Origin: an uncultured Bacteroidota bacterium
GTDB taxonomy: Bacteria; Bacteroidota; Bacteroidia; Chitinophagales; Chitinophagaceae
NCBI GenBank assembly: GCA_903905065.1
Contig: CAIVEW010000039.1
Coordinates: 62,001-126,000, forward strand
DNA length: 64,000 bases
Reading direction: 5' to 3'
Shown here: positions 2,071-53,048 of the stretch, piece by piece
How the letters are laid out: each line of letters opens with the position of its first letter
Numbering within the stretch: the stretch's first letter is position 1
The notes under the pieces: generated by a model
Told to the model about the DNA's origin: nothing
Databases searched by the model: none
The model's input: the letters and a program-made list of their open reading frames with translations, nothing else
Translations under genes and position numbers: made by a program

Positions 2071-2505
2071 TTAATAATAATTGTTTCGTTTTGGATTACT
2101 GCCCCAGGAAATGGAGTCGCCAAGAGGCGTTCCTTCGGTTGATGTGTCGAGATAAGGCCATCCCTGCGGTTGTGCCTGACCAGCCATGATATTTTTGAGT
2201 GCACTGATGGCATCCTGGTAGGCGGTGCGATAGGCAGCGTAGTCAATACCGGCGTTAGACAGGCGCAGCAGGTGCCAGCAAGCCAGATCCTTCACAAGCG
2301 ATTTGAGGTATTCATCAGTTATTGTGGGTGGCGTACTGTCTGTGCCAAAAAGCTGCGCGAGGTCGAACCGGGCGAGATACATTTTGGCTTCCTGTATCGC
2401 TGCGTTTATGGCACGATCAGTTATGGTGGTATCTGTGCGGGTGATCTCGGTGATGATCTCGGGATAAATGTTTGTGGCGAGATCGGAGGTGGTGATGATA
2501 GGCAT
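2071..2505 (-). CDS. Mu gp36-like phage protein (DUF1320)
   Basis: The 144-residue product resembles the DUF1320/Mu gp36 family: a short N-terminal ITTSDLATNIYPEII segment, then a helical region in which residues are assigned to a daily turnover of helices (INAAIQEAKMYLARFDL, DEYLKSLVKDLACWHLLRLS, YRTAYQDAISALKNIMAGQ) and a polar tail. Family members sit between capsid and tail genes and are thought to contribute to head completion or the head-tail connector. Here it lies between the portal and terminase genes and is read in the same direction. The gene starts at an ATG at 2505 and stops 1,024 bp upstream of the portal start, with the two divergent membrane genes in between. Confidence 0.7.
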   Translation of the reverse strand: MPIITTSDLATNIYPEIITEITRTDTTITDRAINAAIQEAKMYLARFDLAQLFGTDSTPPTITDEYLKSLVKDLACWHLLRLSNAGIDYAAYRTAYQDAISALKNIMAGQAQPQGWPYLDTSTEGTPLGDSISWGSNPKRNNYY

Positions 2506-3445: not shown

Positions 3446-4960
3446 TTATAATCGCCCTTTGCTTACTTGCCTTTTTGAGACGGAGATACCTTTGCCACCC
3501 TTTCTATCCAGTATTTCGTTGATCTTCCAGATGGCTCCTTCCACTGCGTCTGGGCCATCGTCGTGAGCGCGCGAGCCGGGGGCGAAGGCTAAGAACTGCT
3601 CTGCGAGGCGCAGCATATGTGGGTTATCCCGCTCGGCGGTATTAAAGTATAGCTGGCCATTGCGATGAAGTGGTTCCAGCAGGCTTTCGATACGCATGAA
3701 TTTATCCGGCTTGCGGCGGGTATCGCCGCGAATGGGTATGTTGCGGCCCGTGCGCTTGCCTGCATCGCCGACTTCCTTCACGATCACATCCTGCATGAAT
3801 GTTTCTTCCATGAGGTAGTAGCAGCATTCTATGCCAACCAGGTCCATGATGTGATAGTGCCAGCCGATCATTGCTGCAGTGGTGGCCTGCTCCAGAAAAC
3901 ATTTGATAATGTGAAATTCATTTTGCCATTTGCCCACGAGCACCGTGGCTTTATAATCGTTGGTGTCTTTATAAGAAGGGTCGGTGTAGCATACGAGGAG
4001 ATCATATTCACGTAGCTGCTGTGCGGGCTTGTATGCCATTGCTTTAAACACCGACCCTTCTGTAATGGGGTTGTTGAAATATTCTTTTTGCTGGGCAGCG
4101 TAACTCTTCTGGGCCAGTACCCGCTCAATGTCTTTCTCCGTATTCTTCTGTGGCCAGGAGGACTGGCCCATGGGATCGCGAATATTGATGACTTCGCTGT
4201 GGTCTGCAAGTTTTGTGGCACGCTCTACGCAACAATCTGCAGCGATTCGATTACCGCAAAAAATGATAGTGGTAGGAGATGATACAGAACGAGTGCCGAT
4301 GGCAGCTTCTTCGATCCATCGCCATTTTTTTGCGACGATCTCCGGATTGAGGCAATCGGCATCCGTGTCTACATCATCAAATAATAGTATGTCGGGGCGA
4401 GCTTCGCCATTTCTTGCACCACGGGGGCTCTGGCCCGCACCGAGCGCACGAAATGCAACTCCCTTTTCTGTAACAAATTCGCTTTCCTGCCACTTGCCGG
4501 GGTTTTGCTGCTTTCCATAGTCCTGGATCATCCGCTTGTTGTATTCAAGATTTGCCTTGTATGGCATTAGCAGGCGACATGCATTGTCAAGGCTATTGCT
4601 GATGAGCAGCACATAGCGTTTTAGTGCCCGGTCTCCCTCAATTGTTTTGTGCCCTACCAAGGTGAGGTAAAACACTTCCATCATTGTGCGTGTGCTTTTG
4701 GCAAGCTCACGGCTCCACATGCGTACTTCGTACCATTCTGAATTTTCCAGTATGCGCTTAGTGGCTTGCTTGTGAAAGACAGCCGGAGCCGCGTAGGCAT
4801 AGGCAGGGAAGTAATAATTGAACCATTTTTCGGGCTCCTTTTCCAGTTCCTCTTTCCTTATACGTCGCTCTTCTTTTGATTCGTTTGCCTGTACCTCGGT
4901 GGTTGCCATGATCATTTTGACATGACCGCCCCATCGGCTAATCCATTGTTTGTCTGTCAT
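3446..4960 (-). CDS. Phage terminase large subunit
   Basis: The 504-residue protein has the two-domain layout of DNA-packaging terminases. The ATPase half shows a Walker A-like SRELAKST at residues 83-90, a Walker B strand DILLFDDVD at 190-198, and a coupling-type strand TTIIFCGN at 230-237. The nuclease half shows the acidic motif CYTDPSYKDT at 324-333 and a C-terminal HDDGPDAVEG at 466-475, which supplies the metal-binding aspartates of the RNase H-like fold. It cuts and translocates phage DNA into proheads through the portal. All motifs look intact. It lies 193 bp downstream of the small subunit, in the same direction, with a repeat in the gap. Confidence 0.9.
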   Translation of the reverse strand: MTDKQWISRWGGHVKMIMATTEVQANESKEERRIRKEELEKEPEKWFNYYFPAYAYAAPAVFHKQATKRILENSEWYEVRMWSRELAKSTRTMMEVFYLTLVGHKTIEGDRALKRYVLLISNSLDNACRLLMPYKANLEYNKRMIQDYGKQQNPGKWQESEFVTEKGVAFRALGAGQSPRGARNGEARPDILLFDDVDTDADCLNPEIVAKKWRWIEEAAIGTRSVSSPTTIIFCGNRIAADCCVERATKLADHSEVINIRDPMGQSSWPQKNTEKDIERVLAQKSYAAQQKEYFNNPITEGSVFKAMAYKPAQQLREYDLLVCYTDPSYKDTNDYKATVLVGKWQNEFHIIKCFLEQATTAAMIGWHYHIMDLVGIECCYYLMEETFMQDVIVKEVGDAGKRTGRNIPIRGDTRRKPDKFMRIESLLEPLHRNGQLYFNTAERDNPHMLRLAEQFLAFAPGSRAHDDGPDAVEGAIWKINEILDRKGGKGISVSKRQVSKGRL

Positions 4961-5153: not shown

Positions 5154-5615
5154 CTACATAATCTCTTTTGGCTGGGTGATGTCCTGCTCGCGGATAAAGA
5201 CATCGAAATGTGTTGTTACTTTCCTGGAAAGCTCGGGATCGCGGCGGAGGAGCCAGGTAGTAAACACTTCGGCCACCTGGACAATTGAGGATATACCCGT
5301 TTCAGATTCCAGGTTTTTTATTGCGGCCGTGTACTTGACTATCAGGTCTACATCTTTTAAATTGTCGAATGCCTGACCAGCCCCCGTGCGGCCAGTAACT
5401 GTTTCCAAAGCTTTGTAAAAGTAATCAAGCTGCATTGCTTTAGAAGTAAGCAAAGAGCGTTTTACCTCAGGCCAGCGGCCTTCCTGTACCCATGAACGTA
5501 CAATAACTTCATCTGCACTAACCTTTAGCGCAATATCCCGCACACTAATGTCCTCTTTAGTATATAGTGATCTTGCCCATTCTCTCTTCTGATCGTACGA
5601 CAATTCTCCTTTCAT
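5154..5615 (-). CDS. Phage terminase small subunit
   Basis: A 153-residue protein with an N-terminal helix-turn-helix: ISVRDIALKVSADEVIVRSWVQEGRW, about residues 23-48, typical of terminase small subunits that bind packaging sites. It is followed by long helices (ALETVTGRTGAGQAFDNLKDVDLIVKYTAAIKNLE) suited to oligomerisation. It precedes the large subunit in the same direction, the standard order. A DNA-binding transcription factor is the only obvious alternative, but position and length favour terminase. Confidence 0.75.
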   Translation of the reverse strand: MKGELSYDQKREWARSLYTKEDISVRDIALKVSADEVIVRSWVQEGRWPEVKRSLLTSKAMQLDYFYKALETVTGRTGAGQAFDNLKDVDLIVKYTAAIKNLESETGISSIVQVAEVFTTWLLRRDPELSRKVTTHFDVFIREQDITQPKEIM

Positions 5616-7134: not shown

Positions 7135-7316
7135 TGTGTATATTTTCACTAAAGATACGGAAGGTGTGGGCAATAAAGATTATTCGGGGGTGTATATGCT
7201 AGTGAAAGGCGAAAACTGGCATGCTTATTGTTAAAGTAATATTAAGACCCTAACCTTTTGACCCATGCGAACGTCTATATAAGAAATGCTATTGCACACC
7301 CTAAAAAACGAGTCTT

Positions 7317-7784: not shown

Positions 7785-8198
7785 GAGTCGTGAGTTGTAA
7801 GTCGTAAGTTGTAAGTCCGCGAGCACCTGAACTGTAAGAGATATAAAGATGTTTGTGAATAGTGTGTGTGAATGAGTGAGTGTGGTTTGTGAGTTGTGTT
7901 GAATGATATTAGCCGTATTGTATGTTTCTTCGCTGGTGTTTTGCCCGGAAAGGAACATAAAATACGGCTAATATGTTTTTAAGAAGTGAATGAAAAGCTG
8001 CGAACATGGACTCGCAGAAAATACGAGGTACACGATACCTGTAGTGTAATAGAAACCAGTTCGTTAGCACTCAAAAAAGTTACATGATGTGCGATATGCG
8101 GCATATGGCGAGGCATATTTGTCACACCATAAAATCGTTTTTTGCGGAAGTGAAAAATGTGATTCACCTTTGTGCCACAAAACAACGATCTCCCTATC
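7785..8198. other. Intergenic gap with direct and inverted repeats
   Basis: No gene seen. It begins with tandem variants of GTCGTGAGTTGTAA / GTCGTAAGTTGTAA (7787-7820), a repeat type common between Bacteroidota genes. It then holds the long inverted repeat at 7906-7974 and a weakly structured stretch to the protease start. Confidence 0.5.
7906..7974. repeat. Perfect 14-bp inverted repeat with 41-nt loop
   Basis: ATATTAGCCGTATT (7906-7919) is exactly mirrored by AATACGGCTAATAT (7961-7974), followed by GTTTTT on the plus strand. The stem could be a rho-independent terminator for the gene at 7317, although the loop is long, or a binding site at the junction between chromosomal and phage genes. 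Confidence 0.55.
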
Positions 8199-9197
8199 AT
8201 GACAGAAAAATTCAAGAAAATAGACCGGCAATATGTGCTGTCGGACAGCACGGTAAATGAGTATGGGTTCCGGCTGCTTACTTCAGGATACCAGATAGAT
8301 TCCTTCCAGAAAAACCCAATTGGCTATTATATGCACCGCCGCGAAGACGGCATTGCTTTAAAATGGGATGACCTGCACATTGAAGACGATAAAATACTTG
8401 GTACGCCGGTCATCAATCTATCGAACGGGCGGGGCGAACAGACCTGCAACGAGGCGGAGAACGGATTTCTCAATGCCGCATCAGTCGGCCATATAGTGGT
8501 GCTGGAGTACAGCATGGACAAGGAAATGATGCTGCCCGGACAGACAGGCCCAACAATAACCAAGTGGTACAACAAAGAATGCAGCCTTGTGGACATACCC
8601 GGAAACCAAAATGCGTTAACCCTACTGTATGATGCGCAGGAAAATGAACTGAACCTCGCCGACCTGAACATCAACCTGCCACTGATAAACGTAGTGCAGC
8701 AAAACACATTAAGAGATCTATGCGCGGCGTTAAAGCTTGTCGAAGCTGATGAAAAAACCGTGGCCGTGGCTGTGCAGGAACTTGTGGCGAAAGTGGATAA
8801 CCTGGAACTGGAGAACAAATTGCTGCGTAGCGATAGACATGACCTACAGCAACAAATAGATGGGATAGGTAAAGTACGTACCCGTTTTGAAGTATCTGCA
8901 CTACTGGAGCGCGCACTGGAGGACAAAAAAATAACCATAGAGTTAAGAGAAAAACTCTCCAGCGACTATGCTGCCAACCCCGAAGGGCTGAAAGCACTAT
9001 TAGCTGCTATGCCTGCGTACCAATCTATAGCAGAGCTGCTTAAAAATAAACAGCAAGACCGAACAGAAGCTCAATGGCAGTGGGATGACTATGATAAAAA
9101 TGATCCCGCGGGAAAGAAGCTGAAAGAGTTGAGGGCGAATGACCCTGTGAGGTATAAGGAGTTGTTTGAGAAGAAGTTTAACCCCCTGACCCCCTAA
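8199..9197 (+). CDS. Phage head maturation protease/scaffold protein
   Basis: A 332-residue protein from the ATG at 8199; an in-frame GTG at 8172 would add 9 residues. The N-terminal half resembles prohead proteases, with a GFLNAASVGHIVV segment and a WYNKECSLVDIPGNQNA strand typical of that fold. The central part (from about residue 170) is a coiled coil (KVDNLELENKLLRSDRHDLQQQI) and the end is helical, as in scaffold domains fused to Mu-like protease I. Such proteins organise capsid assembly, then clear themselves by proteolysis. The catalytic Ser/His pair cannot be fixed without an alignment. It is 445 bp upstream of the major capsid gene, the usual order. Confidence 0.7.
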   Translation: MTEKFKKIDRQYVLSDSTVNEYGFRLLTSGYQIDSFQKNPIGYYMHRREDGIALKWDDLHIEDDKILGTPVINLSNGRGEQTCNEAENGFLNAASVGHIVVLEYSMDKEMMLPGQTGPTITKWYNKECSLVDIPGNQNALTLLYDAQENELNLADLNINLPLINVVQQNTLRDLCAALKLVEADEKTVAVAVQELVAKVDNLELENKLLRSDRHDLQQQIDGIGKVRTRFEVSALLERALEDKKITIELREKLSSDYAANPEGLKALLAAMPAYQSIAELLKNKQQDRTEAQWQWDDYDKNDPAGKKLKELRANDPVRYKELFEKKFNPLTP

Positions 9198-9642: not shown

Positions 9643-10557
9643 ATGGCAATTCAAAAAGAGATCTGGGAAGATCACATCGAAGGCAATCTGTTTAAGAACA
9701 ATGAATTCCTGCTGGCATCAACAGATGCAGGACAGTATGTGCTACAAGGATCGGTGGTGCATATACCTCAAGCCGGGGCGATAGCAAACGTTGTAAAGAA
9801 CCGGTCGTCGCTGCCCGCAACTGTGGTACAGCGTGGCGATACGGACATCACGTATACCCTGGACGAATACACCACAGACCCGATTCTGATTCCGAACGCC
9901 GAGACGTTTGAGCTGAGCTATAACAAACGTGAAAGTGTACTTGGAGAGTACGAATCCTCATTGCGGCAAACCGTGGCAGACAATCTACTGATAGACTGGT
10001 CGCCTAGCGGCAGCACAGGCCTTGTGGTTCGCACAACCGGGGTATCTACCGCAACCACCCTGGCCGGCACTACGGGCAACAGAGCAAAGTTTACCGTGAA
10101 CGATCTAAAAAATGCCCAGTTGCAACTGAACAAACAAAATGTGCCCATGGAAGGCCGCTATGCGCTGATAAGTGCTGATATGTTCCAGCAGCTTACCGAT
10201 GATATGTCGGCCACACAATACCGGGATTTCAGCGCAGCATATGATGTGAAGGACGGTGTGCTGGGCCGACTGTTCGGCTTCAACATAATGATGCGTAGCA
10301 ACGTAGTTACGTACACTAATGATACAGCCCCGGTGGTAAACCCATATGGCGCAACGGCAGCCGCGACAGATAACGACGGCGTGCTATGCTGGCAGATAGG
10401 CGCAGTAGAGCGTGCATTGGGCGATATCAAATTTTTTGAGCGCGTGGGTGATCCCACTTATTACGGTGACGTTTACAGTGTAAGCGTACGCATGGGTGCG
10501 CGTCTGCGCCGCAGCGATGCCAAAGGAGTTGTGGCAATAGTGCAGGCAGCAGCTTAA
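9643..10557 (+). CDS. Phage major capsid protein
   Basis: A 304-residue protein in the position of the major head subunit, directly after the protease/scaffold gene. The pattern fits HK97-fold capsid proteins of Bacteroidota phages. An N-terminal arm (MAIQKEIWEDHIEGNLFKNNEFL) is followed by an E-loop-like strand pair (VVHIPQAGAIANVVKNRSSLPATV) and a central helix with LRQTVADNLLIDW. A P-domain-like KFTVNDLKNAQLQLNKQNVP precedes the late strands (GFNIMMRSNVV, and a final VSVRMGARLRR). No cleavage site is certain. It would form the icosahedral shell. Confidence 0.8.
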   Translation: MAIQKEIWEDHIEGNLFKNNEFLLASTDAGQYVLQGSVVHIPQAGAIANVVKNRSSLPATVVQRGDTDITYTLDEYTTDPILIPNAETFELSYNKRESVLGEYESSLRQTVADNLLIDWSPSGSTGLVVRTTGVSTATTLAGTTGNRAKFTVNDLKNAQLQLNKQNVPMEGRYALISADMFQQLTDDMSATQYRDFSAAYDVKDGVLGRLFGFNIMMRSNVVTYTNDTAPVVNPYGATAAATDNDGVLCWQIGAVERALGDIKFFERVGDPTYYGDVYSVSVRMGARLRRSDAKGVVAIVQAAA

Positions 10558-11490: not shown

Positions 11491-11598
11491 GTCGTGAGTC
11501 CGCGATAGTATTTAGCAATACTATTTGGCAGACAGTCGAGGGTAGCCAATCATGTGCAATCCAAATTTTTTAACACCAACAATCAAAGTAAACAAATT

Positions 11599-12135
11599 AT
11601 GGCTTCTGTACACTCAAATATCCCTAACACTGAAACACTGGCGGCGGCAGCACTTCAGGCTGCTGAAAGCCAGCTAGGACAATGTGAAAAACCAAAAGGA
11701 AGCAATAGCGGTCCTATGGTAAACGAATACCTCCATGCGGTGGGCCTCGCGCCCGGATATGCCTGGTGCCAAGCTTTTGTGTACTGGAGCTACGCAACCG
11801 CCGCAAAAAAGCTGAACCTGGTGAACCCAGTTACGAAAACAGGGAGCGTACATGATTGCTGGAACCATAGCAGCACCAATTCTACCGTTACCAAAATACT
11901 AAAAGCAGATGTTGAACAGCACCCTGACCGTGTGCAACCCGGCGACCAGTTTGTCCTTTTATTCTCGGGCAATGCGGGGCACACGGGAATAGTAGAGAAA
12001 GTGGAAGGAACAATACTGCACACGATAGAAGGCAATAGCAATAATGACGGAAGCCGTGAAGGTTATGAAGTGGTGAGGCACCAGCGCAACATTACTGATA
12101 AGGCCCTTGCGGGATTCATGAGGTACGCCGTTTAG
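11599..12135 (+). CDS. CHAP-domain peptidoglycan hydrolase (endolysin)
   Basis: A 178-residue protein from the ATG at 11599. It carries the CHAP fold: catalytic Cys57 in YAWCQAFVYW, His128 in GNAGHTGIVEK, and the polar partner around Glu144-Asn146 (HTIEGNSNN). Such amidases/endopeptidases cut stem peptides of peptidoglycan. No signal peptide is seen, so it would need a holin or delivery through a tail. It follows the small membrane protein and precedes the sheath gene, an arrangement shared by Bacteroidota myophages. Length and residues are intact. Confidence 0.8.
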   Translation: MASVHSNIPNTETLAAAALQAAESQLGQCEKPKGSNSGPMVNEYLHAVGLAPGYAWCQAFVYWSYATAAKKLNLVNPVTKTGSVHDCWNHSSTNSTVTKILKADVEQHPDRVQPGDQFVLLFSGNAGHTGIVEKVEGTILHTIEGNSNNDGSREGYEVVRHQRNITDKALAGFMRYAV

Positions 12136-12557: not shown

Positions 12558-13739
12558 ATGGGTAGAGTAAATATATCGCTGGCTAATGGCCAGCTAGGAG
12601 GAACGATTCAAACAAATGATGGGATCACCGGGCTGGTGGTTACCGGGGTGAGCGAGTCTGGTGGTTACACCATAGGCACACCGATACTTGTGACCAGCAT
12701 GGCAGACGTCGCAACCGCCGGAATCACCGAGACGAACAATCCTTTTGCAATAAAGCAATTGCAGGAATTCTACGACGAAGCGGGGACGGGGGCACAGCTT
12801 TACGTGCTGCTGACACCCGCAACTATGACCATAGCCCAGATAGCAAGCGACAGGACCGCAGATGCGGCGAAAGCTCTACTGGATTTTGCAGCCGGCAAAA
12901 TAAAAGTGCTTGGATTGCTGAGCGATGACCTGGCAATCGCTGCGGCGGGAGGAACAATATCGGTAACAGGGGCACTGAATGATGATGTATATACAGCAGC
13001 CGCGAACATGGCTGTGTTGGCCCAGGCGTATTTCGTAGCGGAAAAACCCTTCAGGGCAATAATAGGCGGGACATCGTATAACGGCGTACCGGGAAGTCTT
13101 ACAGACGAAACCGACGGAACCACAAACAACAGAACGGCAATATTGATAGGAGACACTAATATCACTTACAGCAGTGCGTCTGCGTGTGTAGGACTGCTCC
13201 TGGGCGTTGTTTCTTCAATACCGGTGCAGCGAAAAATAAGCAGGGTGAGGACCGGAGCACTGACCAATATTAATGCCTATGCTGGTAGCGCTACGGTGGA
13301 AGCCACAGGTACCGATATGGAAGTGATCGCCAGAAAGGGGTACATAACTTTTACAACCTATCCGAATGTAAGCGGCTATTTCTTTAGCGGCGACCCTATG
13401 TGCACCGCAACCACTGATGACTACTGCATGCTGGCCCGCGGCAGAGTAATTGATAAGGCGCATATACTCGCGTATACCACTTTTGTGCAGGAGGTAGATG
13501 ATGAGGTGCCGGTGAATGCCGATGGTACGCTGGACTCCGGCTTTTGCAAGTGGCTGGAACAGCAGATCGTGAACCAGGTGAACAATACGATGACTGCCAA
13601 TAAAGAGATCAGTAATGTGAACTGCTTTATTGACCCCGCACAAAACATACTAAGCACCAACCAACTGAATGTAGTGCTGAAAATAACACCCGTGGGCTAT
13701 GCAACCGATATTGAGATAAGCCTGGGGTTTCAGCAGTAG
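12558..13739 (+). CDS. Contractile tail sheath protein (DUF2586-like)
   Basis: A 393-residue protein starting with a beta-rich N-terminal domain (RVNISLANGQLGGTIQTNDGITGLVVTG). It continues with a variable insert (TNNRTAILIGDTNITYSSA) and ends in the conserved sheath C-terminus with DKAHILAYTTFVQEVDDEVPVNADGTLD and a final strand KITPVGYATDIEISLGF. The C-terminal part donates strands to neighbouring subunits in the contractile sheath. Its presence shows that the tail is contractile (myovirus or injection-system type). The tube gene follows after 64 bp. Confidence 0.85.
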   Translation: MGRVNISLANGQLGGTIQTNDGITGLVVTGVSESGGYTIGTPILVTSMADVATAGITETNNPFAIKQLQEFYDEAGTGAQLYVLLTPATMTIAQIASDRTADAAKALLDFAAGKIKVLGLLSDDLAIAAAGGTISVTGALNDDVYTAAANMAVLAQAYFVAEKPFRAIIGGTSYNGVPGSLTDETDGTTNNRTAILIGDTNITYSSASACVGLLLGVVSSIPVQRKISRVRTGALTNINAYAGSATVEATGTDMEVIARKGYITFTTYPNVSGYFFSGDPMCTATTDDYCMLARGRVIDKAHILAYTTFVQEVDDEVPVNADGTLDSGFCKWLEQQIVNQVNNTMTANKEISNVNCFIDPAQNILSTNQLNVVLKITPVGYATDIEISLGFQQ

Positions 13740-13803: not shown

Positions 13804-14235
13804 ATGCCATCAATACCATTTTTTGATAGTAAGGATTGTGAGTGGGCGGATATGACCGTGATGTTTGCGGGATCGCCACTGACCAAGATACGCGGGGTGA
13901 AATATAAAGCCTCGAAAGAAAAACAATTGCTGCACAGCGCGGGCGATGAGCCTATAAGCATACAGAGCGGCAACCGCACTTATGAAGGCCAGATAAAAGT
14001 GCTGAAGGGTGCGATAGACGATATGAACCGGGCAGCAATAAGCGCCGGTGGTGATGACATCCTGGATATGCAGTTTGACATAGTGATCACCTACAAGCCC
14101 CAGGGAACAAGGCCATTACAGACAGATACTCTGGTGAGCGTGGAGGTGAAGGACTTTGAGAAGGGGTGGGACCAGGGCGCTAAGAATATGGATGTGACGC
14201 TGCCGATCGTGTTTATGAAGTTGATAACACAGTAA
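13804..14235 (+). CDS. Tail tube protein
   Basis: A 143-residue, beta-rich protein directly after the sheath gene, the usual order. It reads as a tube protein: FFDSKDCEWADMTVMFAGSPLTKIRGVKYKASKEKQLLHSAG, a Gly-rich turn with SGNRTYEGQIKVLKGAIDDMN, and a closing strand VTLPIVFMKLI. Such proteins stack as hexameric rings to form the inner tube through which DNA or proteins pass. No alternative role is apparent. Confidence 0.8.
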   Translation: MPSIPFFDSKDCEWADMTVMFAGSPLTKIRGVKYKASKEKQLLHSAGDEPISIQSGNRTYEGQIKVLKGAIDDMNRAAISAGGDDILDMQFDIVITYKPQGTRPLQTDTLVSVEVKDFEKGWDQGAKNMDVTLPIVFMKLITQ

Positions 14236-14391: not shown

Positions 14392-14709
14392 ATGAAGGAT
14401 AACAAACTAACGGGGCAGGCTACTGATGCCGAGATAGCTGAATGGAAGGCTAAGCACAAATATGGCATTTATGCGCTGGAGGCGGGCGGGCATGTGGGGT
14501 ATTTTAAAAACCCGGACAGGAACGAAATCAACTTTGCGATGAGCAAGGCCGACAATGATAGGGTGCTGAATGTGTTTGAAGGGCTTGCCAGCGTAACGTT
14601 CATCGGCGGCAGCAGAGAGTTGCTTGAAGATGATCAACTTTTTATAGGTATCTGCCAGGAGCTGAAGGTGAAACTGGAAGGTAAGCGGGCGAAACTGGTA
14701 AACTTATAG
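14392..14709 (+). CDS. Tail assembly chaperone, short form (G-like)
   Basis: A 105-residue protein following the tube gene, where contractile phages encode tail assembly chaperones. It begins MKDNKLTGQATDAEIAEWKAKHKYGIYALEAGGHVGYFKNPDRNEINFAMSKA; this segment is common in Bacteroidota phages. In such phages the short form is made by normal termination and a longer form by frameshift at its end. The -1 frame is open from 14685 and continues to 14864 (separate entry). The role is to bind and fold the tape-measure protein, yet no tape-measure gene follows here. Confidence 0.6.
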   Translation: MKDNKLTGQATDAEIAEWKAKHKYGIYALEAGGHVGYFKNPDRNEINFAMSKADNDRVLNVFEGLASVTFIGGSRELLEDDQLFIGICQELKVKLEGKRAKLVNL

Positions 14710-15060: not shown

Positions 15061-15966
15061 CTAACCAGGAGACTGCATGCTTTTTTGAGGTTTGTATAAT
15101 GCAGTTGGCAACTCCCAATCCTTTATTTTACTTATGAACAATTTTTGGGTATAAATAATGTGCAGCCAATCGTTCTTTATGTAGCATTTTGCAAATAAAC
15201 TTTTTAGGTGCGGAAGCGGATAGTTGCCAGGAAAAAAAAGCCGTCCGCAATCAATGAACTTTACATAAAGCAGCAAAGTATCTCCATTGTATTTGGGTAC
15301 GCAGTCAAGATCAAGCTGGTTAATCATTACAGCAAACGGCACTTTTCCATTCAGCATATTTGGTACATCCATAATTCTCGATGTGGAGTCGATTAGAGGG
15401 GAATACCACTCTCCGATGAATTGTTGTTGTTGTGTTGTTACAGCAATTCCAGAAGGCACCCCCGTATATTTATACAAAATGGTGTCAAGTTCATACTGTT
15501 TAATATGCTCCTGGTACGTTTCGTGCGTATAGATAATGCGAAGTCTGCCCCTATCTAAGTAACACTTTGCAAACAGGCTGCCGAACAAGGGCATAGGCAC
15601 GTCACTTAACTCGCTATGAAAATTCCGATTCATATACATGAATATGGTATCCTGGCTGTACTTCGGCGTGCAGGTAAGCTCAACGTATCCATCCGAAACT
15701 ATAAAAAATCTCGCGCTATCATTTGTTATTAACAAACAATCAGACAACAGGCTGTCATCCAGCCAGTCTTTTCTTTCCCAATGGCCTAAGAAGTCGGCAG
15801 GTATAGATTTAGGTGCAGACGTAGGAACCGACACTACTGCATGATGGTGCTGTGTACAGGAGAACAGTGATATTAACACCACAGATACAATAACAGCTTT
15901 CAATTTGGGAAGGTTATTTAATTTCTGATGAATAAAACGCAGCTTAAAAATACTTAGTATAAACAT
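15061..15966 (-). CDS. Two-domain lipoprotein, immunity-like
   Basis: The 301-residue product has a lipoprotein signal ending in SLFSC (lipid-modified Cys37). It then carries two copies of one domain of about 105 residues: residues 58-165 and 180-295. Each copy ends in a motif of the form SLFAKCY-x(6)-L-x-I-x-YT-x(7)-(K/Q)-x-(Y/W)EL-x-T-x-LYK. A single-domain relative is encoded at 18008. It is divergent from a truncated lysozyme gene starting at 15983, with 16 bp between the starts. Anchoring in a membrane facing the periplasm and pairing with a peptidoglycan hydrolase suggest an immunity or inhibitor role. This is inference; no family was recognised. Confidence 0.65.
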   Translation of the reverse strand: MFILSIFKLRFIHQKLNNLPKLKAVIVSVVLISLFSCTQHHHAVVSVPTSAPKSIPADFLGHWERKDWLDDSLLSDCLLITNDSARFFIVSDGYVELTCTPKYSQDTIFMYMNRNFHSELSDVPMPLFGSLFAKCYLDRGRLRIIYTHETYQEHIKQYELDTILYKYTGVPSGIAVTTQQQQFIGEWYSPLIDSTSRIMDVPNMLNGKVPFAVMINQLDLDCVPKYNGDTLLLYVKFIDCGRLFFPGNYPLPHLKSLFAKCYIKNDWLHIIYTQKLFISKIKDWELPTALYKPQKSMQSPG

Positions 15967-15982
15967 TGTAAAAAATATTTGA

Positions 15983-16156
15983 ATGCCATCACTTGAATAT
16001 TATGAAACGTTACTGTCTAATCCGAATGTGCAAGCTTATTTGCATGTGATACGCTATGGGGAGGATGGACTAGGAGCAGATGGTTATCGAAAAATGATAG
16101 GCGGTACACTATTTAATGATTTTAGCCTACGTGACCGCTGTAATCATGCGGGCTAA
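15983..16156 (+). pseudogene. Truncated GH104-like lysozyme remnant
   Basis: From the ATG at 15983, 57 residues read MPSLEYYETLLSNPNVQAYLHVIRYGEDGLG and then GGTLFNDFSLRDRCNHAG, ending at 16156. It matches the first part of the intact lysozyme at 18458 (YYQNLLLNPNINAYLLTIRRGEG) and keeps the catalytic-position Glu27. It stops just before the second half of the fold, so it cannot be active. The stop overlaps the stop of the minus-strand gene at 16153 by four bases. It is the remains of a third effector gene whose partner (15061) is preserved. Confidence 0.65.
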
Positions 16157-16659
16157 TGCTCAGGATCGTTCGGGCACTGACAGCTCTGTCCTTTTTCATT
16201 GAGCAGAAATATGCCTTCTTTATGACGGTAAAGTCTCACCTGGGACAGCAGCCACCGGGATCTTTCAGAGAACAAGGAATCATTATTAGCAGACCTCACA
16301 GAAACCGAGGACTGCCAATATGGGTCATAAATCAGGTAGTAATAAACGTTGCAATCGTTTTTTCTTGTGCTGATGTAAAGGCTATCTTTTGTTTTGTGAT
16401 GGCCGTGACTAAAACATAAGTCTAAGCCAGCCTTCAATTCCATTTCGGGGGTACTAGGCTTGCCTCCTGCGGGGAACATACTCATGATGTCTCTTGAAAA
16501 GAGAGTAAAACGAAAAGTGTCTGTTTTACTGCACATTTCTGCCATTGTAAATGGCCATTGGTCTTTATAAAATTTGCACTTGTAACCTTTCAGGTGAATC
16601 TGTGCTTCGCAACTGAGCGAAATAATGATCTGCAATAAGCAAAGCAATAGGTTTTTCAT
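16153..16659 (-). CDS. Exported cysteine-rich protein, immunity-like
   Basis: A 168-residue protein with a signal peptide (MKNLLLCLLQIIISLSCEAQ), so periplasmic or exported; the Cys at residue 17 also allows a lipoprotein reading. The mature part has scattered cysteines (including Cys-Gln-Cys near the C-terminus) and is not similar to the 15061/18008 domain. It is divergent from the glucosaminidase-like gene at 16693, with 33 bp between the starts. That exact spacing recurs for the next pair. By position it is the partner of the glucosaminidase, plausibly protecting the producer's peptidoglycan. No family recognised. Confidence 0.6.
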   Translation of the reverse strand: MKNLLLCLLQIIISLSCEAQIHLKGYKCKFYKDQWPFTMAEMCSKTDTFRFTLFSRDIMSMFPAGGKPSTPEMELKAGLDLCFSHGHHKTKDSLYISTRKNDCNVYYYLIYDPYWQSSVSVRSANNDSLFSERSRWLLSQVRLYRHKEGIFLLNEKGQSCQCPNDPEH

Positions 16660-16692
16660 TTTAATATATTAAGGTAGTATAAAAACAGGACA

Positions 16693-17991
16693 ATGCCACG
16701 AAAAAAGAAAAAGAAATTATTGATTAGTTCGTCATTAAAACCAACAATTGATATATCCAAAGCATTAGAATTTAAAAAACACTTAATTGCTTATGGATAT
16801 AAAAAGCCTGCATTGGATTTTCTTTTGTATCAGGCAGCAAATGAAACGTTGGGATTTACTAGTCTAGTATCAAAAGATGATTTTAATTTTGGAGGTGTTA
16901 AGCATCAAAAAACGTTCAGCAAATCTGTGATGGGCAGTATAAAACATTCTGCACCAGCAAAAGAAGATGAAGGAAAAAGTATATCATATGGTTCCTACAA
17001 AAGTATAGATGATTTTATTGAACATTGGGAAAAGCAAGCACATCTTGGAGAAATGATACATGACAACAAGATTGGCCCACCAATTCAAGCCGATAATTTG
17101 AAAGAATATGTACATAGATTAGCTCTTAATCATTATTTCCAGACAACAGAAGAATTTTATTATTCATTAATGCTGGGTTCCTATCATAAATTATTGAAAG
17201 CAGGAATATTAGATGACCAACCAGCAGATCTGAAAAGCAAGTTTATTCCGGCAATATCAATTCCCAACATAAATTTTGCCGATGATCTTCGGATACCGGC
17301 ACTTACTATTGACACAGCAAAAAATATACAGACGTCAGTAAAAAAAATCCGCAGTAATAACAGCCCTTTATATCCTGCGAAATGGAAATTCGATGAAAAT
17401 AGCCGGGATAACGACAGTTCCATAATAGAGCGCAATAAAGAGCTTTTCGACCTTTTTAAAGTGGATCAGTATGGGCAGCCGTCTTTAAGAAATAGCAATG
17501 AGCAAATTAAAAATCCTGTCCTGGGCTATCCTGCCCTAAAAGATAATTGGATAAATCCGGAATCGCTACAGCTCCTTTCAAATGCTTTGCCAATACCTGG
17601 CGCCAGCGGTATAGGATTAGCGCAAAGCCAAGCAGCGCTTGATGCGGGTACGCTCTTTAATACAGATGAAATAAGCGGCGCGGATATGGACGGGAAATAC
17701 AGACCGCCGGGGAATTGGGGCGGCGATGTTTTTGGAGATGGGAACAACGATACGGGCATATCAACTGGAAGCTTTGCCAACCAAAATGATGAAACCGGAA
17801 GCAATATTCAAGCTGATGATCTAAGCGCTGCAGGAAGTAACCAAGGGCGAACAGTAAACATAAATCTCAACACGCCGCTGATCGGAAATTTTACAATAAA
17901 TACAAATGAGGGCAGGGGCGGAATAGCTGATCTGAGGTCAAACGTAGAGGATGCGCTGCTTGAAATTCTTAACAGTGCAAATGCAGCTTAG
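16693..17991 (+). CDS. Glucosaminidase-like tail effector with shared C-terminus
   Basis: A 432-residue protein in three parts. Residues 25-165 resemble the FlgJ/Bax-type N-acetylglucosaminidase fold: a helix with catalytic-position Glu51 in QAANETLGF, then DDFNFGGVK, then SISYGSYKSIDDFIEHW. A Ser/Asn-rich, proline-containing linker follows (about 180-380). The last 47 residues (RTVNINLNTPLIGNFTIN to ALLEILNSANA) are nearly identical in pattern to the C-terminus of the lysozyme at 18458. It has no signal peptide but has a lysine-rich start. It lies where the tape measure should be. Likely a peptidoglycan hydrolase carried by the tail, paired with 16153. Confidence 0.6.
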   Translation: MPRKKKKKLLISSSLKPTIDISKALEFKKHLIAYGYKKPALDFLLYQAANETLGFTSLVSKDDFNFGGVKHQKTFSKSVMGSIKHSAPAKEDEGKSISYGSYKSIDDFIEHWEKQAHLGEMIHDNKIGPPIQADNLKEYVHRLALNHYFQTTEEFYYSLMLGSYHKLLKAGILDDQPADLKSKFIPAISIPNINFADDLRIPALTIDTAKNIQTSVKKIRSNNSPLYPAKWKFDENSRDNDSSIIERNKELFDLFKVDQYGQPSLRNSNEQIKNPVLGYPALKDNWINPESLQLLSNALPIPGASGIGLAQSQAALDAGTLFNTDEISGADMDGKYRPPGNWGGDVFGDGNNDTGISTGSFANQNDETGSNIQADDLSAAGSNQGRTVNINLNTPLIGNFTINTNEGRGGIADLRSNVEDALLEILNSANAA

Positions 17992-18007
17992 TTGTTACAG
18001 AAAAAAA

Positions 18008-18424
18008 TTATTCATGTTTATACACAATGGTAGATAACCCCCAAGCTTTAATGTGATCCTTGAAATCCTTTTGTGTATATACTATCCGCAATCCTTGTTT
18101 CACAATGTAGCACTTTGCAAAAAGGCTGTTTGTACGTGGAGGGTAATAAGTTGGTCCCCAGAAACCGCGGCCTGCATCATGAGCAATAACATATAAATAC
18201 AAAGTGTCACCCCTGAAAACATTTTTACAATCAAGGCCAAGCTGATCGTTAACATCAAATATAGTAGTTTCCTTAATTGTCAGGATCGTGTTGGAAAGAT
18301 TCTCCTCGCAATCTACTGTTCTATACCATTTGCCTTTGAATTTATCAGGTATTGTTCCGCTGAATGAAGTCAGCACAAGAAGAGATACAATTAACAAGCA
18401 AAAAAATGAAATTCTTTTTTTCAT
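18008..18424 (-). CDS. Exported single-domain immunity-like protein
   Basis: From the ATG at 18424, 138 residues: a signal peptide (MKKRISFFCLLIVSLLVLTSFS) then one copy of the domain found twice in the 15061 lipoprotein. The shared end reads SLFAKCYIVKQGLRIVYTQKDFKDHIKAWGL. An upstream start at 18466 would overlap the neighbouring start and adds 14 residues before the signal. It is divergent from the lysozyme at 18458 with 33 bp between the starts. Since the same domain also accompanies the truncated lysozyme, the domain probably tracks GH104-type enzymes and may inhibit them. Confidence 0.65.
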   Translation of the reverse strand: MKKRISFFCLLIVSLLVLTSFSGTIPDKFKGKWYRTVDCEENLSNTILTIKETTIFDVNDQLGLDCKNVFRGDTLYLYVIAHDAGRGFWGPTYYPPRTNSLFAKCYIVKQGLRIVYTQKDFKDHIKAWGLSTIVYKHE

Positions 18425-18457
18425 AAGGTAACAGATCTTTCTGCAAAATAATAGTAT

Positions 18458-19792
18458 ATGTCCCATAAAAAAAAGCCTTTACCAAAGAAGAACAATATAC
18501 CAATTAAGAACTCAGCGTATTATCAAAATCTGCTGCTGAACCCTAATATAAATGCATATCTTCTGACGATAAGAAGGGGCGAGGGCACTCTAGGTGATAA
18601 TGGCTATTATAAAACATTTGGTGGTGGTTCGATCAGCACGCTTGATGTTAGGCCGGCGCATAAGATATATAAAGCCGTACACAAGCATAAACCGAAGTCA
18701 ATGTTCGATACGGTCAAGGTTGACACACTATATTCATCAGCAGTTGGAGCATTCCAATTCCTGAATTCGGATACGCACCCATATTGGGACGAACAAGCAG
18801 ATGCATTTGGTTGGGATGATATATTGCCTGTTCACCAGGAAATCGGAGCACTACATAAAATAGACGAGCGACATGCTATACAAGATATAATGGGTGGCGA
18901 TATAGTTTCGGCCATATCTAAAACGGGTAGCGTATGGGCATCTTTACCAGGTTCCAACTATCATCAGCCAACTCAAAAGCTTAACGAGGCCCTGGCGTTT
19001 TATCAAGCCAGCGGCGGGGCTCTGAACGGAGTTGGACAGAATGTGGTCGTGCCTGCATTAGTAAATCTTACGAAAAGAACAAAACACGGCAATCCCAAAG
19101 CAGGCAACAACAATGTAAGCCGCGAACAATCACTATGGAATATACCTCAAACGGAGACTGCTGGCCAAAATTTACAGTCAAGGATTAATAGCGCTGGTAA
19201 AATAAGTGGCATAGAAAAGCCCCAAAAAGCCGCAACAAGCGGTGTCCATGGCAACAACATGGATTCAATAACGGCTATGAATAAGCGCTTCTTTGAACTG
19301 TTCGAGATGAACTACCCGGATCAATCACTACTACCAATAAAATCTGTTGAGGATAAAAAAAACAAGCTTTTCGATTGCCTGGCGATGAAAACTACATTTG
19401 CAAACCCAGGATTGCAAAACTTCCAATTATCAGCCACACCCTTACTGGACACCAGTGCCATGATCTCCAGATACTCTGAGAACTGCGTTAATGCAGGTCA
19501 AAAATTAATTCCCGTAATGCAAATCGAAAATCCCGCTTTTCGGTATGGAAATCATGATAACGTGCCAAGGTTACGGGCAAATAGTCACTATGAAGAAGAT
19601 AGCAGTGAAAATAGCTCTGCAAACCAGCACCTGGCGGGCACAAGCCGAACACTAAACATACATTTCAACACTCCTTTTATTGGAGATTTTACAATAAATG
19701 CCACCGATACAAGCAATGGTATAACAGATCTTAAATCATACGTAGAAGAAGCGCTGCTTGAGATTCTTAACAGTGCAAATGCAATACAATAA
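18458..19792 (+). CDS. Lambda-R/GH104-like lysozyme effector with shared C-terminus
   Basis: A 444-residue protein. Residues 25-175 follow the lambda R lytic transglycosylase pattern: catalytic-position Glu42 in RRGEGTLGDNGY, a VGAFQFL segment at about 96-102, then VHQEIGALHKI and SVWASLPGSNYHQ at 158-170. A linker region with low similarity to known domains follows. The final 48 residues (RTLNIHFNTPFIGDFTIN to LLEILNSANAIQ) match the glucosaminidase tail. The stop is 2 bp before the next baseplate gene. It would cleave glycan strands; the shared tail may be the part that docks to the phage tail. Partner: 18008. Confidence 0.7.
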   Translation: MSHKKKPLPKKNNIPIKNSAYYQNLLLNPNINAYLLTIRRGEGTLGDNGYYKTFGGGSISTLDVRPAHKIYKAVHKHKPKSMFDTVKVDTLYSSAVGAFQFLNSDTHPYWDEQADAFGWDDILPVHQEIGALHKIDERHAIQDIMGGDIVSAISKTGSVWASLPGSNYHQPTQKLNEALAFYQASGGALNGVGQNVVVPALVNLTKRTKHGNPKAGNNNVSREQSLWNIPQTETAGQNLQSRINSAGKISGIEKPQKAATSGVHGNNMDSITAMNKRFFELFEMNYPDQSLLPIKSVEDKKNKLFDCLAMKTTFANPGLQNFQLSATPLLDTSAMISRYSENCVNAGQKLIPVMQIENPAFRYGNHDNVPRLRANSHYEEDSSENSSANQHLAGTSRTLNIHFNTPFIGDFTINATDTSNGITDLKSYVEEALLEILNSANAIQ

Positions 19793-19794
19793 TC

Positions 19795-20463
19795 ATGGCG
19801 GAAATAACATTCAGTTTAGCGGATCTTTTTGAACAAACGTTCGGGTATAAGACCCAGGCATTTGACCCTAAGTTCAATACAGTGGTTGGGGAAAACTCAC
19901 TATCGCCGGGGAGAAAGGAAAACGGCGCGCAAGGCTCACCTTACTATTCTTCTGATGCTTTGGGCCGTGAATATCATATGCCGGTTACCATCACTTATCA
20001 GGATGCATCGCAGAGTAATGGGTTAATAACCGGAGCTGGTGGCAGTTCCGACCAGGGCAGTACCGGAGGACTCAGTAAGTGGGACCTACCCTACCCGATA
20101 ATATCTATAACCAGCAGAAAGACGATAGTGGAAACACCACTTACCGGACGCAGGGGCACGGTGAAAGAACTCATCAATATACAAGATTACGAAATCACTG
20201 TAAAGGGATTCATAATCGGCAATACCAATGAATTTCCGGAAACTGATGTAACCACATTGCGTACGATCTACGAACAAAATGTGGCACTATCTATTCAATG
20301 CCCGCTCACAGATATTTTCCTGCTACGGCCAGACAGGAGCGGCAGCGACCAGGTGGTGATCCGGGAACTATCATTTCCGGCGATAAGCGGAATAAAGAAT
20401 GTGCGGCCATACCAGCTTCGCATGGTGAGCGATGAACCTTTTAACCTGGTAACTATTTCCTGA
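19795..20463 (+). CDS. Baseplate-associated phage protein (DUF6046-like)
   Basis: A 222-residue protein. It is like the DUF6046 proteins that follow the tape measure in Bacteroidota contractile phages. It has an N-terminal helix (MAEITFSLADLFEQTFGYKTQAFDP), a segment LGREYHMPVTITYQ and a central ISITSRKTIVETPLTGRRGTVKELI-type strand pair, with IQDYEITVKGFIIG after it. It is adjacent (2 bp) to the lysozyme gene and upstream of the hub gene. It is presumably a tail-tip or baseplate wedge component; the exact role is unassigned. Confidence 0.65.
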   Translation: MAEITFSLADLFEQTFGYKTQAFDPKFNTVVGENSLSPGRKENGAQGSPYYSSDALGREYHMPVTITYQDASQSNGLITGAGGSSDQGSTGGLSKWDLPYPIISITSRKTIVETPLTGRRGTVKELINIQDYEITVKGFIIGNTNEFPETDVTTLRTIYEQNVALSIQCPLTDIFLLRPDRSGSDQVVIRELSFPAISGIKNVRPYQLRMVSDEPFNLVTIS

Positions 20464-20500: not shown

Positions 20501-21535
20501 ATGATGTTTGTTTTAAGCAGTGATATAACTATTGGCAATTTCCGGTTTGGCGGGGAGCATGAAGTGAGGATAAAACGGAGCCTGTACAGCATAGCCGATA
20601 CCGCAGTCATAAGGATCCCGTCCATTGCAAAGGTTGTTACCGGGAATAATACACAACCGGGAGTTGTCACAACCGGGAAACAGTTCAGCGATGGAGATCC
20701 CGTTATTATCAAACTGGGTTACGATGCTGACTTACAAACAGAATTCGTAGGTTTTGTGAAGCGCCGCAACGTGGATATGCCGCTAACGATAGAATGTGAG
20801 GGGTATAGCTGGTTGCTGAGAAGAAACAATCTAGACATTTTCGAAAAGTCGATAACCATAAAAGACTTGCTGCTGAAGGCTGTTGCCGGCATAGACAAGA
20901 ATTATGAAATCAAGGTGCAATGTACAGTTGATTACACGCTTGAAAATGTTTATATACCAAACGCGAGGGGTTTTGATATAATAAACAGCATCTTACAATA
21001 CACAGATGGAGCCCTGAATTGCTGCTTCATACAGCCAGATACTTTATGGTGCGGACTGGTGTTTACACCCTACGCTAACGGAAATGATGTTTTTGAATTA
21101 GGCAAGGTCAATTACAAACTGGGATACAATGTTGTAAAAAATAATACCTTAAAAGAGCGCCTTACTGAAAACGACCCCGCGAAGGTGACCTACAGTACGC
21201 GGCTCTCTACCGGCGATAAAGTATCTCAGAGTTCAGACGTTTTTACGGATTTTGTGCGTACCCACAATAAGATCCTAACCCAGGTGAAGGACGCAACGAC
21301 ATTGACTCAACTAGCAAATGAAAAAGCCTACAAATTAAATTACTCCGGCTATGAGGGAAGTATCCACGCGTTCCTTCAACCCTACGTAACGCCCGGGTAC
21401 CAAGCATACGTAACAGACGAGCAATATCCTGAAAGAAATGGCAGCTACCTGATAGAGGGTACTGAAGTGCGTTTCGGGATGAATGGAGCGCGTAGATTAG
21501 TGGAAATAGGCGTTATGGCAGGCTTCGCAAAATAA
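20501..21535 (+). CDS. Baseplate hub protein (late control D-like)
   Basis: A 344-residue protein of the gpD/gp27 hub class. It starts with a beta domain (FRFGGEHEVRIKRSLYSIADTAVIRIPS), then LGYDADLQTEFVGFVKRRNVDMPLTIECEGYSWLLRRN, with a later PGYQAYVTDEQYPERNGSYLIEGTEVRFG segment typical of the closing tower. Hub trimers sit at the centre of the baseplate and hold the spike. The start is at 20501 (ATG ATG), in the same operon as its neighbours (7 bp from the next gene). Confidence 0.75.
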   Translation: MMFVLSSDITIGNFRFGGEHEVRIKRSLYSIADTAVIRIPSIAKVVTGNNTQPGVVTTGKQFSDGDPVIIKLGYDADLQTEFVGFVKRRNVDMPLTIECEGYSWLLRRNNLDIFEKSITIKDLLLKAVAGIDKNYEIKVQCTVDYTLENVYIPNARGFDIINSILQYTDGALNCCFIQPDTLWCGLVFTPYANGNDVFELGKVNYKLGYNVVKNNTLKERLTENDPAKVTYSTRLSTGDKVSQSSDVFTDFVRTHNKILTQVKDATTLTQLANEKAYKLNYSGYEGSIHAFLQPYVTPGYQAYVTDEQYPERNGSYLIEGTEVRFGMNGARRLVEIGVMAGFAK

Positions 21536-26175: not shown

Positions 26176-26721
26176 CTATACCCTTGACGCACTCTGCCTC
26201 GTAAAAAGAAGGAGATACACAATAATAAAGAGCATGGAGGTCAGCGATGAAGCAATTATTTTCAGCAACAGGAAGCCAAAGTTCGAAAAATTCCAAAGTT
26301 CTATCGAGAAGAAGACAAAGTGGTGCAGCACAATTAAAAACGCACTGTATACCAGGAAGGGCATCCAGCCCATGCTTCTTATAGATGGGTGCTGGCCATC
26401 ATATTCTGAGAGATTACGTGGCAGTAATGCGCTCAGCACATTGGTCCGGAGGTAAGCAATAACAACAGTTGCAAAGGCATGCATCCCGGCAGTATTCATA
26501 AAAGAATCAACTGTCAGGCCTAGCCCAAAACCCATAAGCAACAACGCCCATACCGGAGTTTCGAAGGGAAGAAGAAGAATGAACAATGGGTAAACATAGG
26601 GGATGAATACCGGGAAACCGGCAGGCTCGCTCCACCAGCGCAGCGTGATCTTATTGAGGATCAGCACCTGCAGCAGGATGATAATGCAGAAACGTAAAAT
26701 ATTTTTTAAGTAAACGTTCAT
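26176..26721 (-). CDS. mreD: Rod shape-determining protein MreD
   Basis: A 181-residue polytopic membrane protein with five to six spans, last gene of the mreB-mreC-mreD order. It has the typical pattern ILRFCIIILLQVLILNKI at the N-terminus, PYVYPLFILLLPFETP, and a long C-terminal hydrophobic span. MreD anchors the elongasome with MreC and RodA. The end is convergent with the phage fibre gene, 6 bp away, so the phage block abuts the cell-shape operon directly. Confidence 0.85.
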   Translation of the reverse strand: MNVYLKNILRFCIIILLQVLILNKITLRWWSEPAGFPVFIPYVYPLFILLLPFETPVWALLLMGFGLGLTVDSFMNTAGMHAFATVVIAYLRTNVLSALLPRNLSEYDGQHPSIRSMGWMPFLVYSAFLIVLHHFVFFSIELWNFSNFGFLLLKIIASSLTSMLFIIVYLLLFTRQSASRV

Positions 26722-45545: not shown

Positions 45546-45554
45546 AATGTTATT

Positions 45555-50243: not shown

Positions 50244-50310
50244 ATTCGATTACTATTTGAATGATTTATTTAAAGACAGGTATGGCTTGCGCCATACCTG
50301 TCAATGAAAA

Positions 50311-51129: not shown

Positions 51130-51157
51130 ACTTTTCTTTCTTTTTTGTTTTTCTTGT

Positions 51158-51331
51158 TTACTTTTTGTCGTTCTTTTTAACCTGGTCTGCTATCCCTTCA
51201 CCGATCAGAGAGCCAACAAAACCGCCAAGCATAACAAGGGGTGCAGCATCTTTACCGGCTGCCTTTGCGTACCAATAGGCGACAAGTGAAGTAAGCAATG
51301 TTGCAGACGAAATAATTGTCTTCTCTTTCAT
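51158..51331 (-). CDS. Small Gly-rich membrane protein (57 residues)
   Basis: ATG at 51331: MKEKTIISSATLLTSLVAYW, then PLVMLGGFVGSLIGEGIADQ and a basic end KKNDKK. Two hydrophobic stretches, the second with a GG-GxxxG packing pattern. It sits between two genes of the cluster in the same direction with consistent short spacing, which supports it as real. It may be a virion or membrane-associated protein. Confidence 0.6.
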   Translation of the reverse strand: MKEKTIISSATLLTSLVAYWYAKAAGKDAAPLVMLGGFVGSLIGEGIADQVKKNDKK

Positions 51332-51362
51332 GTGGTTTTTTACCTCCTTTTTCGTTTTTGTA

Positions 51363-52016: not shown

Positions 52017-52084
52017 TGTTTTTGATTTTAATGATGAATAAAAAAGTGATAGGGTTTATGGTTGAGTGTTACTGTGAACAGCCA

Positions 52085-52318: not shown

Positions 52319-52403
52319 TTTCTTTGTTTAAAAGTTTAATTAATTGATACGTTAATAGTCCAAGTGCTGCGCTGATAATGAATACATCAATGATCGGATG
52401 CTT
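52275..52403 (-). other. Possible non-ATG membrane peptide frame
   Basis: A frame following the stop of the gene at 52404 without an ATG: residues IIDVFIISAALGLLTYQLIK form a clean membrane span, then it overlaps the start of the 52085 gene in another frame. ATT/ATC would have to initiate. Low support, kept because the span is cleaner than expected by chance. Confidence 0.2.
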
Positions 52404-52994: not shown

Positions 52995-53048
52995 CTTAAA
53001 GTTGATTGATTAAATAATGAACTGTATCATTTTTCTCACTCCTGTCAT

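Follow-up and report, generated by a model that had tools for sequence, protein, structure and literature searches.

Why would a phage tail operon carry three genes for peptidoglycan hydrolases, each with a gene for an exported protein running in the opposite direction beside it? The question is raised by positions 15061-19792 of a 64,000-nt stretch of DNA (hereafter the window) from an uncultured Chitinophagaceae bacterium (GCA_903905065.1, contig CAIVEW010000039.1, 62,001-126,000, forward strand). A first-pass annotation of this stretch had proposed an effector/immunity island served by a contractile phage tail. Comparison with related loci suggests that the hydrolases sit in the position of the tape measure protein (TMP) of a probably domesticated, vertically inherited phage-like particle, and on balance we find it probable that they would be delivered into rival cells while cognate exported partners shield kin.

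Three divergent gene pairs in the tape measure slot

Re-reading of the open reading frames (ORFs) bore out the coordinates and strands that the first-pass annotation had given for three divergent pairs (Table 1). The partner and enzyme genes are 16 bp apart in the first pair and 33 bp apart in the second and third, as it had reported, the last spacing holding only if an internal ATG is the start of the enzyme; the longest ORF (start given as 18466) overlaps the partner by 9 bp. The truncated lysozyme that it saw in the first pair is a 57-aa ORF forming the head of a GH104 protein, and its GH104 lysozyme of the third pair is a lambda-type lysozyme. Alignment showed that this lysozyme retains the glutamate of the GEGT segment, taken to be the catalytic residue of the GH104 family. 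The glucosaminidase-like enzyme of the second pair stood only in part: a likeness to Pfam PF01832 was found, but at 19.1 bits it lies under the cut-off of 30.2, which two of the four relatives tested exceed (L006, 30.7 bits; P0015, 34.9 bits) and two do not (L020, L042). No solved structure matched this protein at E<=1. The partners do seem to be exported, as had been claimed, their N-termini resembling signal peptides and that of 15061 a lipoprotein in a reading made by eye rather than with a signal-peptide program. Partners 15061 and 18008 belong to one family (A, with two domains in 15061) and 16153 to a separate one (B); no Pfam family matched any of the three at E<=1. Comparable divergent pairs recur in related loci, so those of the window are more than chance.

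All three pairs lie between the gene at 14392-14709 and the DUF6046 gene starting at 19795, which is the TMP position of related phages. This slot is A+T-rich, with a GC content of 38-41% at 15-20 kb (2-kb windows) compared with 48% at 13-15 kb and 46% at 20-22 kb. Of the main slot proteins of 11 more distant loci, 10 matched Pfam TMP_3 at E<=0.01, seven of them above cut-off, L040 being the one without a TMP_3 match; the 927-aa slot protein of L009 matched PhageMin_Tail. Twelve domesticated-type slot proteins were tested without any match to a TMP family in Pfam, and the whole genome of the window gave no TMP_3 or PhageMin_Tail match. By these searches the window proteins are in the TMP slot, yet do not class as members of a TMP family.

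What resembles a TMP end is the C-terminal ~50 residues of the window enzymes. With the window lysozyme as sole query, its C-terminal region was matched in 20 of 60 genomes among the matches listed (its own included), and its last 60 residues alone matched the TMPs of L077 (E 3.7e-7) and L041 (E 7.5e-7). A motif model of this region also matched TMPs outside its training set, namely those of L070 (E 6e-11), L041 (2e-7) and L077 (2e-6). Its matches to 36 of 36 slots are partly by construction, since 35 of them were used to build it; the lysozyme-only search and the distant TMPs are the independent tests. Because they combine the TMP position and a TMP-like C-terminus with the lack of a TMP family domain, we read the slot proteins as TMP-slot proteins with replaced N-termini. 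In L049 and L051 the slot ORF stops before the motif, which lies in the following frame (a real feature or an assembly error). More distant copies of the phage (L068, L069 and L070) have TMP_3 slot proteins, two above cut-off, and lie away from mreD.

Slot polymorphism and enzyme-partner pairing

The N-terminal part of the slot protein is polymorphic across 36 slots, drawn from the window, 24 further genomes of the genus, six other genome contigs and five viral contigs, and classed by iterative profile searches seeded with the window and L005/L006. GH104 with its glutamate kept was found in five slots, a glucosaminidase-like enzyme in four (L006 and the window, which has both enzymes, included), a hydrophobic domain in 14 (again including L006) and a GH104 homologue without its glutamate in one; 14 slots could be given no enzyme or hydrophobic class ('other'). 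A pore-forming reading of the hydrophobic class was dropped because the hydropathy maxima of this class (1.29-2.01) and of the others (0.62-1.79) overlap.

Partner genes follow these classes. Partner A accompanies all five GH104 slots and occurs nowhere else among the 36, while partner B is beside all four glucosaminidase-like slots and in two of its six slots lacks that enzyme (L073, L050). Partner S, a membrane protein with 2-3 hydrophobic segments in 8/8 cases and a SHOCT domain in both proteins tested, is present in 8 of the 14 hydrophobic-class slots and in no other class; L053, a slot of this class, has a unique lipoprotein-like partner in its place. The GH104 homologue that has lost its glutamate has no partner beside it.

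A cognate partner gene was found in 8/8 slots with a predicted-active hydrolase, that of L057 being broken by stops, and any partner in 0/13 complete 'other' or dead slots (Fisher p 4.9e-6, uncorrected for kinship), a value that overstates independence because independent origins are few. The contrast left out two slots cut by contig ends and the hydrophobic slots, and minus-strand ORFs of 96 aa in L039 and 90 aa in L051 were not counted as partners. Parsimony gave three changes each for GH104 (M), partner A and the glucosaminidase-like class (G), two for B, 10 for the hydrophobic class (P) and seven for S. Slot class as a whole changes 13 times on the tree. It is only loosely tied to the tree, and some tie is present, because 13 or fewer changes arose in only 2/200 shuffles.

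Cassette exchange and partner remnants

One cassette of the window is nearly identical to its counterpart in genome G004. Sliding identity of 97.5-100% at 18.1-20.1 kb drops to 74-80% from 21.1 kb onward. Synonymous divergence (dS) is 0.011 for partner A and 0.021 for the lysozyme, rising to 0.11 for the two-domain partner (A2) and 0.18 for DUF6046, as compared with 0.85 for gyrB, 0.81 for the terminase large subunit gene terL, 1.28 for the major capsid protein (MCP), 1.35 for the sheath and 0.93 for mreD; apart from DUF6046, the other particle genes, gyrB and mreD span 0.52-2.31. These values indicate that a lysozyme-partner cassette moved recently between two species. The ratio dN/dS is 0.011-0.104 in particle genes and 0.27-0.43 in A, A2 and the lysozyme, where changes are few.

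Remnants of cassettes are also present. In G004, partners A' and B and an A2 in split form persist next to remnants of enzymes, and G024 retains partner B without its enzyme. Among the 35 genomes of the genus, strong matches to A (E below 1e-30) lie in the slots of G000, G004, G003, G013 and G023, with a further one on a 4-kb contig of G008 that holds the gene preceding the slot and a 111-aa GH104 head, and strong matches to B (E below 1e-70) lie in the slots of G016, G004, G006, G000 and G024.

A distant partner-A-like exported gene (L145, L148) was seen in a common chromosomal neighbourhood of G010 and G029. By eye, a partner-A-like stretch opens a longer protein in L149, and in L150 it stands beside other genes, together with a look-alike of window 44091-45545.

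A probable vertically inherited particle

We sampled 35 genomes of the genus (25 of good quality) and 396 of the order; the more distant phage type contributes a few copies to the genus figures. DUF6046 was found in 28/35 genus genomes (23/25 good-quality) and in 27/396 of the order sample, own genome included, terL in 31/35 (24/25) and the MCP in 28/35 (22/25). At the 31 DUF6046 places of the genus, mreD lies beside 23; three have room for it and lack it (G012:C67, G009:C37, G027:C41), all of the more distant phage type, and five cannot be judged (G023, G006 and two in G022 at contig ends; G033, a weak match). Since the 'domesticated type' is partly recognised by this site, 23/26 is the fair count.

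Distances between genomes in the particle genes correlate with those in gyrB (r 0.76 for the sheath, 0.70 for the hub, 0.70 for DUF6046, 0.66 for a baseplate gene, 0.62 for the protease, 0.62 for terL in 14 genomes and 0.49 for the MCP, the last reached in 3/2000 permutations), and the ordinary host gene mreD gave 0.69. The terL sequences cover 15 of the 25 genomes and contain segments invariant in all 15 when aligned. The vertical inheritance of phage structural genes with the host, by which gene transfer agents (GTAs) are recognised, is thus seen here in the mreD site and the gyrB tracking.

Packaging and capsid loci are adjacent in the window genome. In six genomes terL is close to the capsid gene (G000, G004, G016, G013, G006, G028), in six it lies 19-124 kb away on the same contig (G034, G009, G011, G024, G029, G002), and in most others the two are on different contigs, which may reflect assembly breaks. 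Seven of eight packaging loci taken apart from the capsid locus hold the tail terminator, portal, gp36, terL and terS; the eighth, at G026:C52 (L138), has terL alone, and a second terL match of that genome is at G026:C125. The separated loci of six genomes, a layout shared with GTAs, are suggestive of a particle that can pack no more than a portion of its own genes. Neither the reading of ORFs by eye nor the Pfam scans that were made brought an integrase, a repressor or a replication gene to notice. The reading as an ordinary prophage is weakened because most of the genus shares one chromosomal site, the genes track the host tree and the packaging genes are distant in six genomes; the element is probably a vertically inherited, domesticated particle.

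Other features of the window

The remaining particle genes are collected in Table 1. The gene at 14392-14709 is presumably a tail assembly chaperone, and 'tube', 'spike', 'gp25' and 'BaseJ' are provisional labels of our own, given in part by position. A host-like DEAD-box helicase gene (5932-7173) separates the packaging operon from the capsid operon. At 1065-2043 the packaging module contains two small genes for membrane-protein-like products, read from the opposite strand, as it does in several relatives. A second element on the minus strand (44091-62262) encodes a 1562-aa protein together with a small GH104-like lysozyme of its own (57503-58057), which has look-alikes in several genomes of the genus.

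Table 1. Features of the window, in order of position, with the matches behind each label.
Feature	Position	Strand	Evidence
Mu-type portal protein, extending 81 bp beyond the left end of the window	1..1047	-	Pfam Portal_Mu E 4e-63 on L143:1420-2547
Mu gp36-like head-tail adaptor	2071..2505	-	Pfam E 2e-7; phrog E 9.6e-12
Terminase large subunit	3446..4960	-	phrog E 3.7e-69; in 31/35 genus genomes
Terminase small subunit-like	5154..5615	-	phrogs E 3.8e-19 (DNA binding protein), 2.4e-4 (terminase small subunit)
Head maturation protease (Mu-like I)	8172..9197	+	Pfam Mu-like_Pro E 1e-4, below cut-off; phrogs E 7.4e-4
Major capsid protein	9643..10557	+	phrog E 1.5e-33
CHAP-domain lysin	11554..12135	+	Pfam E 3.1e-9
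Tail sheath (DUF2586)	12558..13739	+	Pfam E 6.7e-53; phrog tail sheath
Tail tube, label by position	13804..14235	+	phrog tail protein E 3.1e-9; stronger phrog_9206 (E 1.1e-22) labelled major head protein
Conserved gene preceding slot	14392..14709	+	phrog_19076, unknown function; no Pfam match
Partner A2: two-domain, exported, lipoprotein-like, family A (predicted)	15061..15966	-	family A match E 4e-99; alignment
Truncated GH104 lysozyme head, 57 aa	15983..16156	+	class M match E 4e-22; alignment
Partner B: predicted exported protein of restricted family	16153..16659	-	8 proteins including itself at E<=1e-3 (protein database, word-limited search); alignment
TMP-slot protein, glucosaminidase-like N-terminus (16801-17031), shared C-terminal motif (17842-17986)	16693..17991	+	Pfam E 0.0021, below cut-off; relatives; motif model built from these slots
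Partner A: predicted exported, small beta-barrel-like protein	18008..18424	-	AlphaFold2 mean pLDDT 83.7; family A alignment and match
Tract of recent exchange (partner A, lysozyme, beginning of DUF6046)	18100..20100	.	97.5-100% identity to G004 (200-bp windows); dS 0.011, 0.021
TMP-slot protein, GH104 lysozyme N-terminus (18551-19027), shared C-terminal motif (19640-19790)	18458..19792	+	PDB 1am7 E 5.8e-12; last 60 residues match TMPs
DUF6046, baseplate hub, directly after slot	19795..20463	+	Pfam E 1.9e-28; phrog baseplate hub E 1.5e-14
Baseplate hub	20501..21535	+	phrog E 2.2e-47
Host mreD, conserved right flank, label by reading	26176..26721	-	homologue beside tail locus at 23/26 assessable genus places

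Interpretation and alternatives

Domestication, the TMP slot with its shared C-terminus, polymorphism, pairing and one cassette transfer are the computationally supported parts of the reading that we prefer. These Chitinophagaceae would encode a domesticated, vertically inherited contractile phage-like particle whose slot proteins sit in the tail tube, held to the hub by the conserved C-terminal motif. The N-terminal half, a swappable peptidoglycan hydrolase or hydrophobic domain, would be released by ejection into the periplasm of the target cell, damaging it, and the divergent gene of each cassette would supply an exported cognate partner that protects the producer and its kin by neutralising the enzyme. 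Cassettes would pass between lineages by recombination, and decayed ones would leave partner-only remnants. Lumen loading, ejection, inhibition and the killing of non-kin are steps that we infer.

The effector/immunity reading of the first-pass annotation gained from the co-variation that it had proposed to look for in relatives (A with GH104, B with glucosaminidase-like and S with hydrophobic slots), from the partner-only remnants and from the movement of one pair as a unit, but it had missed the identity of the TMP slot. It had also missed that the supposed prophage appears to be a domesticated, vertically inherited particle with packaging genes separated in several relatives, which makes a plain prophage less likely, though still conceivable. 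Partners standing without enzymes in most relatives, the case that it had named as counting against it, were not found; all strong matches to A and B in the genus are in slots or in the slot fragment of G008.

Several observations weigh against the delivery of slot hydrolases into rivals. Independent gains are few, with three parsimony changes each for GH104 and partner A, and sign tests on M/A and G/B cannot reach 0.05 with 2-3 supported pairs, the median p for P/S being 0.0625. In G023 the partner A gene has two stops beside an intact lysozyme, in G008 the lysozyme beside partner A is a head only, and six of the 14 hydrophobic-class slots are without S (one of these carries another lipoprotein gene instead, and a contig end truncates a second). 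Outside the slot, the genus genomes hold six weak homologues of A and four of B. The end of the L009 TMP matches the motif weakly (E 0.0043), and the matches of several other TMPs are not significant. In addition, phage TMP hydrolase domains that aid entry are already known (PMC6116005).

It is this precedent, in which TMP hydrolases act as virion-associated lysins (PMC6116005), that speaks for a GTA whose hydrolases only open a hole for DNA, with partners that guard against lysis from without or choose DNA recipients and with killing not the function. The genes for capsid, portal and terminase have been retained alongside those of the tail, and the frequency of terL and its invariant segments fit as well. 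We nevertheless consider this explanation unlikely, for the swapping of enzyme types and the partner-only remnants are not readily explained by it, and a partner that blocked the entry enzyme would be expected to halt DNA transfer to kin. Superinfection exclusion appears less probable still: here the partner would block the tail lysozyme of incoming related phages, the enzyme being an ordinary tail lysin, much as PMC7677548 describes Spackle of T4, a periplasmic inhibitor of the gp5 tail lysozyme. That the partners look exported and follow enzyme class agrees with such a role, as do the related copies at other sites (L068-L070), whereas the element gives no sign of mobility, with its mreD site, its packaging genes 19-124 kb off in six genomes and neither an integrase nor a repressor showing up in the by-eye reading of ORFs or in the Pfam scans. 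Distantly related A- and B-like genes at other chromosomal sites, where a by-eye reading mostly showed no adjoining hydrolase, would suit minus-strand genes that are unrelated passengers or host-envelope genes hitch-hiking with the slot; we hold this to be very improbable in view of the class-specific pairing, the missing partner beside the glutamate-less lysozyme and the co-transfer of one pair.

The delivery of slot hydrolases into rivals, with partners shielding kin, thus remains our preferred explanation. More doubtful, and offered tentatively, is a broader proposal of a GTA-like, head-bearing Bacteroidota particle whose TMP slot serves as a polymorphic toxin platform, with an exchangeable N-terminal toxin, a C-terminal docking motif and a divergent immunity gene marking kin, so that non-kin could be killed, and DNA carried among kin (its own cassettes perhaps included), by a single particle type.

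Comparison with known systems

If these proposals hold, exchangeable toxins are carried in the phage TMP slot, which is a route of delivery not met in the literature searched, and Bacteroidota possess an inherited particle with head and tail that can be likened to GTAs. It would then become directly testable why bacteria keep costly particles, be it for kin discrimination and killing, for DNA transfer or for both. Among the reports listed, our literature search turned up neither a TMP toxin accompanied by an immunity gene nor a GTA from Bacteroidota, which is not proof of absence, and no report in it combined a tail-lysozyme inhibitor, a TMP hydrolase and a vertically inherited particle.

PBSX-type defective prophages and tailocins are likewise inherited phage-derived particles that could kill relatives; the present element differs in its candidate effector/partner cassettes in the TMP slot and in having kept head and packaging genes. 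The polymorphic cassettes of type VI secretion and contact-dependent inhibition systems share with it an exchangeable effector next to its cognate immunity gene, the occurrence of orphan partners, and peptidoglycan hydrolases with exported partners. Here, however, the carrier is a phage TMP-slot protein, whose variable part is N-terminal and whose conserved part is C-terminal.

GTAs (RcGTA, BaGTA, BhGTA/VSH-1) are described as vertically transmitted phage-derived particles in the available part of PMC9662315, in which the term 'bacteroid' does not appear. They resemble the present element in phage head-and-tail genes inherited vertically with the host, whereas this one would have a DUF2586 contractile sheath, a Bacteroidota host and a polymorphic TMP slot with exported partners. 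T4 Spackle and gp5, compared by description only, likewise join a periplasmic protein to a phage tail lysozyme; the pairs reported here are divergent, polymorphic and part of a vertically inherited element. Finally, TMPs may carry hydrolases (PMC6116005), and titles cited there name TM4, T5 and phiIPLA35. Going by those titles, a peptidoglycan hydrolase on a protein at the TMP position is common to these phages and to the window, in whose genus, unlike in them, the enzyme class varies, each class has its own divergent partner and no TMP family domain is left.

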